From: a virus
Virus record (IMG/VR): IMGVR_UViG_3300034236_000011
Span: 1 to 24,676 of that record
DNA: 24,676 bases
Reading direction: 5' to 3' (one strand)
The notes under the pieces were generated by a model that searched no databases, was not told the origin of the DNA, and was given only the letters and a program-made list of their open reading frames with translations. The position numbers were made by a program, and so were the translations under genes. Positions 20,501 to 24,676 of this stretch are shown piece after piece. Each line of letters starts with the position of its first letter. Positions within the stretch are counted from its first letter, which is position 1.

Positions 20501-22942
20501 GCCGCCAGTGATGTCCATTTCATAGAACTTCTCCTGACCCTTGTCACGACGACCCTGACGCTCGTCTAACAACTTCTCGGACTGCACAAGCTTATCGCTG
20601 ATCCAACGGAGAGTATTCTCCATCTGACTGACGACGCCCTGCATATCTTCTGTAAACTGCTGGCCGACGATGTTCTTGAACCGCTGCCACTGAGCCGTGA
20701 CCGAGTTCATCGCACGCTCGTTAGCTACCAACGCAGCCGTCGAATACGAGAACGACAACTGCAACTGGTCAGCCACGTCCACGTTGTTCTTCGCGGTCAG
20801 GTAGAACGCAGCAGCGCGGGTCTCAAGACCAGCGTAAGCCTGTGAGGCACCGAAGCCAGCGTTACGCAGCGTGTCGAGCACAGCAGGCAAGCCACGCACG
20901 CTCACGTCAATGTCAGCCGAGGTTAGCTTGAGAAGCGTAAGCTGCTCGGTGAGCTTCTTGCTTGGGTCCTGCAAGTCCACAAGGAACTGACGGAAGCCGG
21001 TGCCGATGGTGGAACCGCTCTTGATACCAGCCTGTGCGACGGAACCAACAGTGGCAAGCAACTGCTCAAGGCTGATGTTCTGCTCGTATGCGGTGGCACC
21101 GACATACTGGATGGCCTGACCAACCTGCTGCACCGTCAACTTGGTGCGGTTCAGAGCTTCAGTCATCAGGTCAGCAACGCGGCTGCTCTCGCTGGCCGAC
21201 AACTGGAACGATCCAAGGGCCGACGTGACAAGCTGCACAGCTTCCTCAGGCGTGGAACCTGATGCGGTAGCGAGCGTGGTGACAGATGCCAGCACCTTCT
21301 GCATGTCACCAGCGGCGACACCAGCCTGTGCGAGGGTCTGTGAAATCTTGATAAGATCAGTCGTGGCGAACCGCGACGTTTCACCGATAGCGAAGATCGA
21401 CCCACGCAGCGTTTGCATCTGCGTATCGGTCGCATTGGCAATGGCCTGTAGCTTGACCATCTCGTCTTCGATTTCGATGGTGTTCGACAGACCGGATTGT
21501 GCCGCGTTGAACGCGCCGTAAGCCGCACCAGCAGCCGCTCCGTAAACTCCGGTGCGTGCGATAGCTGAGACAGCGTAGCCGGGTGACAGGATGCGCTTAA
21601 GCGGGTTCTCTTTCTCAGGACCGGGCGCACCTCGCGCAGCTTCGCGTGCATCTTGAGCCGCACGACGGCTGGCTGCGGCAATCTGACGCTCAATAGCAGC
21701 AACGCGAGCGTCCTCAATACCAAGCAGGCGTTGAGCAGCGACTTGCTGCTGACCAACGGCACCCTTGAGAGCGTTCTGTGCAATAAGCTGACGACCCAAG
21801 GCAGCATTCAAAGCCTGCTGCGGACCAAGCGAAGCAATGGCATCCGTCGCATAGCGATTGGCCAGCATCTTCTGACTGCGACCGCTAAGGTTTGCATCGC
21901 CAGCAGCAGCCCGCTCGTCGGCCTTCTTCACGCGCTCGGCGGCAGCAGCCAGTTGGTTCTCCTTGGCGACCATACGCTCAATGGCAGCGAGCTTGGCACG
22001 CGCAAGGTCGAGACTTTGCAGGGCAGTAACACGCTCACGCTCGGAAGCGGCGTTCAGCAAGTTCTGCGTGGCTAGGGTCTGCGCGTCAACAGCACGGCTG
22101 CGTGCGTTGGATATACCGTAAATCTGCACGTCACGCTGCGCGGCAGCAGGCGCAAGGGCCTTCTGTGTCTTGTTGTCGAGACCGGACATGCGACGATTAG
22201 CCGCTTCAAAGGTCCGCATGTTCTGCTCAAGAGCTTGGCCACGCGCCTTCTCCATCGCAATAAGCTGTGCCAGTGCGCGAAGCTGCTCGGGGTTCGTCTC
22301 GGTCTTCTGCGCCTGACGAAATATCTGCATCTTGTTCATGTTGTCAACACGCGCACGCGTCAGAGCATTGGAATCCTGAATGCTCTTGGCGTTTGCAACA
22401 GCTTCGTCACGCGCTGCGCTGATACGCGAAGCACGGATGAGCTTCTGAGTTTCAATCTCCTGCTGCACCCGGCGACGATTATTTTCTGCAACGATGCGGG
22501 CACCCTCACGCTCGTCAGCAGCAATACGCTGAGTAGTCTCACGGCTGGCCGCTTGACGATCCTTGGCTTCCTTTAGCGTAAAGGCGCGGGCTTCGTCATA
22601 GCCCTTCTTGCGAAGCTCGGCCTGCTCCCGAAGGGCACCCTTAACAACACGATCAGTGTCCTTGACCGCATTGGCTTCGGCCTTGAGGGCAGCAGTATAG
22701 TCTCGGTCTCGGGTAGCCTTGGGCGTGCTGACTGCACGCAGACCATTCATCGCATCGCGCAATGACTTGACGTTGGCGTCGAGGGTCTTGTTGAGGTCAG
22801 CTACGGTCTTGTAGCTGTCCTTCTGAATGTTGGTGATTGTCTTCTGGATAGCATCAACGCGACGTTGAAAAATATCCATAGCCGAAAAGAGCGGCTTGCC
22901 GTCAGCGTCTAAAACGACATCTTGTTCATATGGTTTCGCCAT
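17573..22942 (-). CDS. Tape measure protein with embedded M15-peptidase-like domain
   Basis: Sets tail length and passes into the host at infection. Of 1789 residues, 1-445 are a long charged helix (NIQKDSYKTVADLNKTLDAN onward, many Arg, Ala and Glu). At about 448-490 a Gly/Ala-rich hydrophobic segment begins (SPGYAVSAIARTGVYGAAAG). Residues 490-720 match the TP901-type tape measure domain (ALGSFQLSASESSRVADLMT, QAIQYVGATAYEQNISLEQL). At about 1183-1290 lies an M15-like segment with SGQRTAAEQNDL, SSHSKPGGIARDV and PHLHG. Residues 1600-1660 are hydrophobic (IMSAITQIVTKIIATKIISL). The end, with GGGQVMGGHDMRDSTL and KKEFVVRRAAVE, is the typical tape measure C-terminus. The ATG at 22942 sits inside an 11-bp inverted repeat, with AGGATAGG as ribosome binding site. 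A TAATG overlap leads to the M-like gene. Confidence 0.93.
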   Translation of the reverse strand: MAKPYEQDVVLDADGKPLFSAMDIFQRRVDAIQKTITNIQKDSYKTVADLNKTLDANVKSLRDAMNGLRAVSTPKATRDRDYTAALKAEANAVKDTDRVVKGALREQAELRKKGYDEARAFTLKEAKDRQAASRETTQRIAADEREGARIVAENNRRRVQQEIETQKLIRASRISAARDEAVANAKSIQDSNALTRARVDNMNKMQIFRQAQKTETNPEQLRALAQLIAMEKARGQALEQNMRTFEAANRRMSGLDNKTQKALAPAAAQRDVQIYGISNARSRAVDAQTLATQNLLNAASERERVTALQSLDLARAKLAAIERMVAKENQLAAAAERVKKADERAAAGDANLSGRSQKMLANRYATDAIASLGPQQALNAALGRQLIAQNALKGAVGQQQVAAQRLLGIEDARVAAIERQIAAASRRAAQDAREAARGAPGPEKENPLKRILSPGYAVSAIARTGVYGAAAGAAYGAFNAAQSGLSNTIEIEDEMVKLQAIANATDTQMQTLRGSIFAIGETSRFATTDLIKISQTLAQAGVAAGDMQKVLASVTTLATASGSTPEEAVQLVTSALGSFQLSASESSRVADLMTEALNRTKLTVQQVGQAIQYVGATAYEQNISLEQLLATVGSVAQAGIKSGSTIGTGFRQFLVDLQDPSKKLTEQLTLLKLTSADIDVSVRGLPAVLDTLRNAGFGASQAYAGLETRAAAFYLTAKNNVDVADQLQLSFSYSTAALVANERAMNSVTAQWQRFKNIVGQQFTEDMQGVVSQMENTLRWISDKLVQSEKLLDERQGRRDKGQEKFYEMDITGGYSNTEGLAGGLNSLISLVSTNDSVAQWFVDIQKSSDGASAASERLGTQINETSGKIDEHKQRVTELDKELIRLITQKDTLRNNDTRSAAETATLTSRFVGLANQLTVTGNRYDDLVQAARRYRLEQLRLMGVELQVQQLQLGQQSRESRSNLRTNLYQINNNAEVMAALNPQERGAVKGLYNSEVGSQAFTANLGILSAAVERLGKTNQSVANVLSRGLNPAGTYAQSTAQLGAIAPALGAARAGQTGAGAQLNTGYTNISAIIEQLGSQTNGSPEKRRLTGQGNAILNEMDTLINRRLAQNPNAGENRTYLLGMQQEVTSFRTQLRALNSATAEEVATGKKLARERTQQERRAGAEARRADSEAAKGPAITQAQFDEVLARVTGMPLGSGQRTAAEQNDLHRRGKTRATADTSSHSKPGGIARDVRTGAISDARGEQLEEAVRAEFKRAYGIDVYVKYENGRGKNNGTAPHLHGNTLPGQNRIKPGSESRGASEQFQYDTAMDQAQLELDRKGLAESLKQMATATTSETFDAAAASAQKALERVNQNLKDIAGNELASAGIANTSDPRWQAKMAQVDQAIAQNIEAYQRQITDGLLKSFKATVKRVQESFEASLKPSQNTLAIAQASASGLNNYTMRNRVPEQTRILADARVAQAQEGAQRAELQQLPGRIAGEEAALADLKSRAEKTSGLDLDRINAQIEETNNNLANLRTTREALAASLGVEGLLPQTLSQGVSQAIAAYKEMNNMNQTFTQTLNGEMLGGITTIGDAFQNMFSGIISGSQSVLGAIGGFAKAIMSAITQIVTKIIATKIISLMFSIFGGSLGGDPFSASNAGPVNIDSSSVASLVPSFAGYHGGQVPGFAGGGQVMGGHDMRDSTLAKLSKKEFVVRRAAVESVGTDFMHKLNKRGAAALDSTKDTPPIAVAAQQSVNVWMVKPDEKPSMGPQDVLVTWQNDVLSNGESRRLIQHVARDSR

Positions 22943-22974
22943 GCCCTATCCTTTTCAGATAAAGCATGGCGAAA
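22934..22974 (-). promoter_or_regulatory. Perfect 11-bp inverted repeat covering the tape measure start codon
   Basis: TTTCGCCATGC (22934-22944) and GCATGGCGAAA (22964-22974) are exact reverse complements separated by 19 bases. In the minus-strand transcript the 3' arm contains the tape measure ATG and its next two codons (GCATGGCGAAA), and the loop contains the purine-rich ribosome binding site (AAAGGATAGG). A folded RNA would hide the start codon while showing the ribosome binding site in the loop. It lies between the stop of the metallophosphoesterase (22997) and the tape measure start. It has no T run after it, so it is not a terminator. Confidence 0.7.
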
Positions 22975-22996
22975 TCAAGGGGTCAGTGGGCAACCG

Positions 22997-24274
22997 CTAT
23001 ACGGTGAAGGACTTAATCGGCTGTGGCATGTAAGGAACTGCCTTGCCGCTGGCTTCTGCAATCGCACGAATACGATCACGAACCTGCTGGATCGGCAGAA
23101 GGCGACGACCAATCTCACCATACTTGCGGCTGCGATTGATGACCGTGATCGACTGACGTGAGCGATAGCCGTTGTCGTGTGCGTAGGCGTCCTTGGACGC
23201 TAGGATGCCGAAGCTCTCAATGATAACTTCGGGATGCTCGACAGAGCGCATGTGGTGGTGGATGTGACCAATGTCGATGTAGTGAAACTCGGTCTCACCG
23301 AAGTCACGACGGAAGTCACTGGTCATCACCTGTGCCAGCTTGTTGGGGCGAGTCTTGTCGCTGTGGTGGGTCATTACGAACGTGTTGCCCATTCGGTAGC
23401 CGATGAAGGGCGAATGGTTGTTGAGCACGTTGACGCGGCCAGAAGCACCATAGACCTCGCGCAGAAGGACAGCCATCCAAATGTCATTCGTGCGGGAGTG
23501 ATTGCCCTGATTGATGATGATGTCCACTGTCTCGGCCTTCGTGAGCGCAAGGTCCACGATGGTCCGCATAACGCGGGAGTAAACGTCGATCATCTTGGGG
23601 AAGCGGCCATCGTAGTCCAGCTTGTTACCGCTGTGCTCCGTCTCGCCCTTCATGTTCTCGTAGTGGGTGAAGTCGCCAAGGTCGTTGATGACCATGCGCT
23701 TTACAGGCTTCATTTCAGCAATCAGCATCGCAATGGCGGTGAGCAGTTCACGCTCTGCGATCTTGAGGTCGAAGTTCGCGCCGGTCTCGGCTTCATGAGC
23801 GAGCATACCCAAGTGAGCGTCACCGATCTGAATCCAAGGAATGATGTCATCGTCGGCGTCAAGTGGCGCGTCAGGGATGACGATGTTGTGTTCGATGCCT
23901 TCGACAAAGGCAGCGATGCCCTGCTCGACCTTCTCAACCCACTGTGTGTCGTCCAGACGAGTCTTCGTCCACTGCAACATCATTCGACGCTCGCCCGTCT
24001 CCGGGTCCACCTTGTCCATTGTCGAGTGGCCACGCGCTACGAACGGTGCCGGGATCACCCGCTCCAAGCCATGCTCCGGTGAGAAGCCGTGCGCTGCTGC
24101 GTTCTTCTTCACGCGTTTGATAGCCCGCTGGACGACGCTGTGATGGAGACCCAACGCCCGCGCTGCTTCCCGCCTGTTTCCGTTCGCGCTTTGGATAGCG
24201 TCGATGATGCGGCTTTGAGCGGGTGTTGCCCATGCCTTCAGTTCCTCAAGACTGTCTGTAGTTCCGCTTCGCAT
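22997..24274 (-). CDS. HTH-metallophosphoesterase fusion protein in the tail operon
   Basis: 425 residues with AAGGA eight bases before the ATG at 24274. Residues 18-56 form a Fis- or Crp-like helix-turn-helix (SRIIDAIQSANGNRREAARA then LGLHHSVVQRAIKR). Residues 143-390 form a calcineurin-type phosphoesterase: GDAHLGM (D152, H154), LGDFTHYEN (D201), NQGNHSRTND (N258, H259), MTHHSDK (H303, H304) and IGHIHHH (H337, H339). All metal ligands expected for the family are present. Such fusions are known in phages as HTH/DNA-repair-exonuclease-like proteins, but their substrate is unknown to me. It is a different type from the SbcD-like protein at 2783. It sits between the I-like gene and the tape measure, where a tail function is not obvious. 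Confidence 0.85.
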   Translation of the reverse strand: MRSGTTDSLEELKAWATPAQSRIIDAIQSANGNRREAARALGLHHSVVQRAIKRVKKNAAAHGFSPEHGLERVIPAPFVARGHSTMDKVDPETGERRMMLQWTKTRLDDTQWVEKVEQGIAAFVEGIEHNIVIPDAPLDADDDIIPWIQIGDAHLGMLAHEAETGANFDLKIAERELLTAIAMLIAEMKPVKRMVINDLGDFTHYENMKGETEHSGNKLDYDGRFPKMIDVYSRVMRTIVDLALTKAETVDIIINQGNHSRTNDIWMAVLLREVYGASGRVNVLNNHSPFIGYRMGNTFVMTHHSDKTRPNKLAQVMTSDFRRDFGETEFHYIDIGHIHHHMRSVEHPEVIIESFGILASKDAYAHDNGYRSRQSITVINRSRKYGEIGRRLLPIQQVRDRIRAIAEASGKAVPYMPQPIKSFTV

Positions 24275-24286
24275 ATATATGATCCT

Positions 24287-24676
24287 TTAAGGAGTAACAG
24301 GGAAAGCTCCATGCGACAGTTGATTGCTGTCGGACTGCAAGCTTAGCCAGTGGGGGTAAAGATTGACACGACCCCACGCCATTGTGATCGGCGTTCGTGC
24401 CGCCGTAGTATTTCGGTTGATGCCGAGATATTTTGAGTCTTCGGGATCGACGGACTTATCCATCTTAGGGGACTTGAAGAACAAGCCCACCACGCCTTGT
24501 GCCATCATCATGCCGCCCGAAATCATCAGCGAAATGCCGACTGTGGGGCTGAGAGTGAAGAAGACAACAGCACCGATAGCCACGACTACGGCACCCATGA
24601 TAATCTGACCGAACTTGCCGCCGCCGCCATGCAGCGAGGGCATGATGTTGATTTCATCTGGACGTTCGGTGAGAAG
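24287..24676 (-). CDS. Tail assembly protein I-like, C-terminal part; 5' end outside the window
   Basis: The frame is open from the right edge of the window (LLTERPDEIN before the first Met at 24643), so the gene enters from beyond 24676. The visible 129 residues have a glycine-rich turn (MPSLHGGGGKFGQIIMGAVV), a hydrophobic helical hairpin (VVAIGAVVFFTLSPTVGISL and MISGGMMMAQGVVGLFF), and then SPKMDKSVDPEDSKYLG and NRNTTAARTPITMAWGRVNL. This is the layout of the C-terminal half of lambda I: Gly/Ala hydrophobic hairpin, 'S/D-x-x-x-SY-x-F-G-x-x-x-N-T-T-x-x-G-x-P-x-P-x-x-YG' motif and a strand. I-like proteins help assemble the tail tip. Lambda I lies next to J; here it lies upstream of the tape measure. 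Confidence 0.75.
   Translation of the reverse strand, partial: LLTERPDEINIMPSLHGGGGKFGQIIMGAVVVAIGAVVFFTLSPTVGISLMISGGMMMAQGVVGLFFKSPKMDKSVDPEDSKYLGINRNTTAARTPITMAWGRVNLYPHWLSLQSDSNQLSHGAFPVTP

Follow-up and report, generated by a model that had tools for sequence, protein, structure and literature searches.

Hairpins that sequester a translation start are known from T4-type phages, in T4 genes e, soc, 49 and I-TevI, where the late promoter lies at the 5′ arm of the stem (PMC3014915). According to the same paper, which cites the original work, a hairpin at mobE of the Aeromonas phage Aeh1 is reported to reduce translation initiation (cited in PMC3014915). In the split ribosome binding sites of T4 genes 25 and 38, the stem forms between the Shine-Dalgarno sequence and the ATG and aids initiation (PMC3014915). 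The SAS/ESAS elements of the cluster K mycobacteriophages are inverted repeats with a variable spacer just 5′ of phage starts (PMC3203893). The ESAS are 17-bp inverted repeats with a shared consensus, particular to each subcluster, which lie beside a 13-bp start-associated sequence upstream of the start of non-structural genes; evidence for an mRNA hairpin was slight in the eyes of the authors who described them (PMC3203893). The tape-measure gene of Corndog (cluster O mycobacteriophages) makes use of a non-canonical start codon or of bypass (PMC4351075). A limited literature search found no report of a hairpin sequestering the start of a tape-measure or terminase gene.

The window analysed here, a stretch of 24,676 nucleotides, comes from a virus contig of 81,356 bp. 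The phage is a siphophage of ~80 kb, distantly related to Caulobacter phage Seuss; based on the terminase (~41–45% identity), the closest isolates are Pseudoalteromonas phage KB12-38, Caulobacter phage Seuss and Achromobacter phage JWF. A search of viral contigs with the tape-measure protein returned the window's own contig as its sole match. In the three isolates the gene directly ahead of the tape measure is the tail chaperone or a small gene, and the tape-measure start is without a comparable strong start-codon hairpin. In the window's group, the probable major tail gene is separated from the tape measure by tail genes resembling lambda L, K and I together with a phosphoesterase gene (window positions 22997-24676 and L129:8751-11857), and no chaperone gene adjoining the tape measure was identified. 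Seuss and JWF have the opposite arrangement, with these tail genes downstream of the tape measure. The TAG stop codon of the phosphoesterase gene (22999-22997) is 54 nt 5′ of the tape-measure ATG, and the minus strand from this stop onward reads TAG CGGTTGCCCACTGACCCCTTGATTTCGCCATGCTTTATCTGAAAAGGATAGGGC ATG GCGAAACC.

Table 1. Features of the tape-measure start region and its neighbours, in window coordinates.
Feature	Position	Strand	Basis or remarks
Tape-measure protein gene, 1789 aa	17573..22942	-	phrog_37649, tail length tape measure, E 1e-83; Pfam PhageMin_Tail
HTH + phosphoesterase gene, co-directional, 5′ of tape measure	22997..24274	-	phrog_704; Pfam HTH_8
GGTTG box of leader	22991..22995	-	Begins 53 nt 5′ of ATG; recurs in relatives before terminase, phrog_37797 and tape measure
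TTG box	22976..22978	-	12 nt past GGTTG, 33 nt 5′ of ATG; unchanged in all 16 tape-measure leaders aligned
Candidate transcript-start zone deleting the 5′ arm	22957..22975	-	Inferred from position of the element; predicted drop in opening cost at −20
RNA hairpin, 18 bp	22934..22974	-	5′ arm 22974-22957, loop GAAAA 22956-22952, 3′ arm 22951-22934
Likely Shine-Dalgarno sequence AAGGA	22949..22953	-	GGA paired in 3′ arm, AA in loop; sequence and fold
Tape-measure ATG start codon, within 3′ arm	22940..22942	-	Sequence; predicted fold

A sequence-only reading of this DNA had described a perfect 11-bp hairpin around the tape-measure start, with a stem too long to be expected by chance, the ATG blocked and the ribosome binding site displayed in the loop. 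The arms were correctly placed: on the minus strand TTTCGCCATGC (22974-22964) and GCATGGCGAAA (22944-22934) are exact reverse complements of 11 nt each, with the ATG at 22942-22940. The hairpin is real but larger than described, as TTTATCT (22963-22957) pairs with GGATAGG (22951-22945) to give 18 bp, of which 15 are Watson-Crick and 3 U-G, closed by a loop of 5 nt (GAAAA). The ribosome binding site is not displayed, since the GGA of AAGGA is paired and only its AA is in the loop. That such a stem is unlikely by chance was borne out at both lengths folded, with an MFE of −38.8 (z −4.9) for 111 nt and of −28.5 (z −6.7) for 54 nt, and with none of 200 shuffled sequences as good in either case. 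The ATG is indeed blocked, being fully paired, and the predicted cost of opening the start is 27.2 kcal/mol, compared with a median of 8.6 and the highest among the 82 called gene starts of the 81-kb contig, a set which is a simple ORF-based approximation. Among the simple hairpins of the contig it ranks third in stability. Another 18-bp hairpin (CTTGAGTTAAGTGACCAGC...GCTGGTCACTTAACACAAG), in the leftward-transcribed region (L128:5613-5659), is among the strongest of the genome.

The predicted stability does not suit an RNA thermometer, which melts in the physiological range: the pairing probability of the ATG is ~1.0 from 25 to 65 °C and the predicted opening cost at 50 °C is still 21.8 kcal/mol, so that the temperature switch suggested by the sequence-only reading is disfavoured. 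An intrinsic terminator would have a U-rich tract after the stem, and no terminator-like site was found in 22850-23150. An Rfam search of the window gave no family match at the gathering threshold. As at T4 genes 25 and 38, related phages have RNA structure where a virion protein gene begins, but here the ATG and the Shine-Dalgarno GGA are both within the 3′ arm, which does not correspond to a split ribosome binding site. The likeness to Aeh1 mobE is that of a phage RNA hairpin at initiation, although mobE, as presented in the citing paper, is a homing endonuclease gene and not a virion protein gene. Corndog likewise has an unusual tape-measure translation start after a disturbed arrangement of the neighbouring genes, while the start here is a normal ATG in a hairpin.

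Conservation was assessed in 17 distinct relatives, including the window, in which the tape measure lies behind the phosphoesterase gene; in one of them (genome G004) an antisense HNH endonuclease-like gene (L112:4330-4930) is inserted between the two. A clear hairpin is present between the conserved TTG box and the tape-measure ATG at 15 of the 17 loci, the stem being absent in L112 and weak in L003, and the hairpin has a z of about −4 to −7 in many relatives. In ten of the 17 the start is deeply buried by a strong stem (opening cost 21.8–29.4 kcal/mol) and in two it is intermediate (12.9 kcal/mol in L003, with its weak stem, and 15.1 in L024). In the four members of one clade (L006, L008, L012 and L020) the hairpin stops 13–16 nt 5′ of the ATG, and the start is open, with a cost of 7.7–9.9 kcal/mol.

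The letters of these leaders are not conserved. In the 16 tape-measure leaders that could be aligned, the TTG is invariant and lies about 32–34 nt 5′ of the ATG, and the interval between them has almost no conserved letters; among the relatives with a buried start the identity of the 5′ arm is only 30% and the loops are all different. As the register of the stem varies among relatives, a chimera test, in which the 5′ half of one leader was joined with the 3′ half of another relative's, was used instead of an RNAalifold-type analysis. For the ten relatives with a buried start, native leaders had a mean of −27.7 kcal/mol compared with −14.4 for the chimeras, and the native leader was best in every comparison. 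In stems picked by a rule blind to the difference, G-U pairs outnumber A-C mismatches 19:7, compared with 182:298 in shuffled controls (Fisher p 7e-4, a value that is indicative only because the relatives are not fully independent), and the excess of G-U therefore points to selection on the sense RNA. The count of compensatory pairs in the four open-start relatives (1 pair) was within the range of the shuffles and carries no weight. The sequence-only reading had looked to related phages for conservation of the stem, and there the pairing is kept through near-complete sequence turnover. Pairing itself is under selection, independent of sequence. A translational operator would be expected to have common stem or loop sequence among relatives, which was not found, and the sequence-specific protein switch proposed earlier is thus unlikely. 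The hairpin shares with the ESAS its inverted repeats near starts, but there is no shared consensus of the arms among relatives and the other ESAS traits are reversed here.

The TTG is part of a leader, GGTTG-N12-TTG-N32-34-ATG, which is common, with fixed spacing, to the terminase, the phrog_37797 head gene and the tape measure in nine genomes. The pattern GGT(T/G)(G/T)-N11-13-TTG-N30-35-start occurs at 31 places in these genomes, most of which are the starts of the three genes; permuted or re-spaced motifs, which were counted only, occur at 2 to 22 places. A fourth gene, phrog_28493, which probably encodes the major tail protein, has the element ~86 nt upstream. Its leader contains a conserved block, GGTTG-N12-ATTGAGC..AAA..AAGGCAAGAGGCA (L129:7747-7834, ~86 nt before the ATG), which recurs in L004, L010, L015, L020 and L025 and is possibly a second structured leader. 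The terminase leader (L128:17631-17683 and its homologues in G001-G009, L180, L184 and L185) has a dyad, GGTTG-N5-CAACC, followed by TTG, and this dyad is a candidate late promoter or operator. Farther upstream of the terminase and phrog_37797 leaders there is a short palindromic block (TTACCNNGTA-like; L149:13330-13433 and homologues), present in several relatives with variable spacing. A pattern scan for more tape-measure leaders, which serves as a negative control, gave only the known ones and unrelated matches without hairpins.

The rightward late block begins with the terminase, which in most genomes faces a conserved divergent gene, so a late promoter is expected nearby. A terminator-like hairpin lies downstream of the phrog_28493 gene. 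Given the divergent neighbour of the terminase and this terminator-like hairpin, the genes with the leader sit where late units would start, and we infer that GGTTG-N12-TTG is a late promoter or its control site. At the tape measure the element ends at the 5′ arm of the hairpin. No sigma-70-like promoter was found at either of the leaders searched, and readings of the element as a sigma-70, sigma-54, sigma-32 or −35/−10 promoter were rejected by eye on spacing or downstream sequence. The profile for single-subunit RNA polymerases (PF00940) gave no match, but its control gave none either, so that this negative carries no weight; the sigma factor search gave no match above the cut-off. A leader peptide starting from the invariant TTG was also dismissed by eye, as neither its frame nor its stop is conserved.

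Strong hairpins are not a general property of this leader, as they are present at the tape measure, absent from phrog_37797 and phrog_28493, and found at only one of 13 terminases. This terminase, in genome G011, has an 18-bp stem containing the ATG (z −4.9, opening cost 25). Immediately upstream of the gene is a co-directional ORF, 420 aa or longer, with a TAG that overlaps GGTTG; the geometry is that of the phosphoesterase-tape measure junction. The remaining terminases that could be judged lie behind divergent genes. In G004, where the HNH-like gene separates the tape measure from the phosphoesterase, the leader motif is intact, the hairpin is absent (z 0.1) and a clear Shine-Dalgarno sequence is missing. 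These two loci serve as natural tests, each a single event. The phrog_37797 gene is a partial exception to the neighbour rule: it has no hairpin, yet it lies behind the co-directional portal gene, at a distance of usually ~115 nt and in one genome of 17 nt. The hairpins are found mainly where the leader adjoins the stop of a co-directional gene.

The closest parallel is T4 gene e and its like. T4 e, soc, 49 and I-TevI have the start codon or Shine-Dalgarno sequence locked in a stable stem on long transcripts; in the window the ATG and the GGA are predicted to be so paired, and ten relatives have a deeply buried start. At the tape measure a candidate expression element also adjoins the 5′ arm, and transcripts beginning there would evade the stem. 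The differences are that the phage is an ~80-kb siphophage distantly related to Seuss, that the hairpins are at tape-measure and terminase genes rather than at lysis and homing genes, that there is no TATAAATA late promoter and that the sequence of the stem turns over completely; transcript starts are here predicted from the position of the element. The best reading, to which we give even odds, is that the hairpin is a device of the gene e type, in which the stem silences run-in transcripts and the functional mRNA starts inside or just past the 5′ arm. Run-in transcripts from the upstream gene would fold the stem and mask the tape-measure start. The relation between RNA structure at the start site and initiation is well established, and a strong stem around the start would therefore leave initiation nearly silent on RNA that contains it. 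A separate late transcript, driven by the GGTTG-N12-TTG element and beginning inside or just past the 5′ arm, could not form the stem for want of a full arm and would be translated. With the 5′ end of the RNA placed at −20, the predicted opening cost in the window drops from 27.2 to 6.6 kcal/mol, and in the other buried-start relatives it is 6–17 kcal/mol. The hairpin would in this way shield a low-copy structural gene from the transcription of its neighbours. The promoter role of the element, the transcript start site and the purpose, dosage or timing, are all putative. Transcription from upstream is probably late as well, which means that the timing logic of T4 gene e is not directly transferable and that the purpose may be isolation of dosage rather than timing. 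More tentatively, and at a little under even chances, the hairpin may be a sequence-free insulator, the leader gaining a start-masking stem when it comes to lie directly behind a co-directional gene, with the tape measure and terminase ignoring run-in RNA and obeying their own promoter, and the stem being gained and lost with the neighbours while its letters drift.

The suggestion of the sequence-only reading that the hairpin bears on the translation of a low-copy tail protein is supported, but the mechanisms that it offered fare less well. Were the stem present on all tape-measure mRNA, it could lower initiation to match the few copies per virion, ribosomes beginning on rare molecules that are open or unfolded co-transcriptionally. 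The occurrence of the hairpin at the tape measure and one terminase, both low-copy, and not at phrog_37797 or the probable major tail gene agrees with such a dosage throttle, as do the isolates with the tape measure directly behind the tail chaperone and no strong hairpin, where coupling may substitute. It is nevertheless rather unlikely: a static throttle is hard to reconcile with opening costs of 21.8–29.4 kcal/mol, which imply near-silence and not tuning, the start is open in one clade, and a terminase hairpin found only behind a co-directional gene is left unexplained. Under translational coupling, of which the sequence-only reading had proposed a readthrough form, ribosomes that finish the phosphoesterase gene, or pass its stop, would unfold the stem and start again at the tape-measure ATG. 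The end of the upstream gene is 41–57 nt from the ATG in all relatives except the HNH-inserted one, and in the window translation past the TAG would remain in frame until it met a TGA at the loop. This frame is not kept among relatives, however, and the stop lies anywhere between 5 and 32 nt from the 5′ arm; the ~22 nt in the window is farther than a terminating ribosome usually reaches, which makes coupling a poor fit and, in our judgement, quite improbable.

A sequence-free stem at a fixed gene junction could also be an RNase III site or an exonuclease stop that parts the upstream and tape-measure messages, for which the letters would be irrelevant, and this would cover the clade in which the hairpin leaves the start open. 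We think it improbable, since in most relatives the ATG or Shine-Dalgarno sequence is inside the stem and a double cut would damage the start, the stems of several relatives (11–14 bp) are on the short side for RNase III, and similar phrog_37797 junctions have no hairpin. An inverted repeat close to a promoter-like element is often an operator, and the terminase leader does have its conserved dyad, so the palindrome might act as DNA (operator, cruciform, replication or packaging site) with the RNA fold as a by-product; arms nearly without common sequence across relatives, and an excess of G-U over A-C that only sense RNA explains, make this most improbable. For a strong stem without function speak the absent stem of L112 and the weak one of L003, and otherwise only the general possibility. 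Chance as a general account is refuted by the z values of the relatives taken with the chimera test. The other three families of genes behind this leader also speak against it, as they have no comparable hairpins, one terminase excepted; we give it hardly any credence. A simple throttle, a thermometer and a protein switch thus fit less well than an insulator, and no model fully explains the open-start clade.

Start-sequestering hairpins are already known in T4-type phages; those described here differ in the complete turnover of their sequence and in their link to the upstream neighbour. For the very different amounts of virion proteins that phages make from one late region, explanations have mostly been specific to single cases. 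In these phages a structure that is kept while its sequence is discarded appears to cut the expression of tail-length and packaging genes off from the transcription of their neighbours. Sequence searches are poorly suited to detecting a structure of this kind, so insulators like it may be common but missing from annotations. A further product of the analysis is a candidate control element for the late genes of a group of environmental phages that are distant relatives of Caulobacter phage Seuss.
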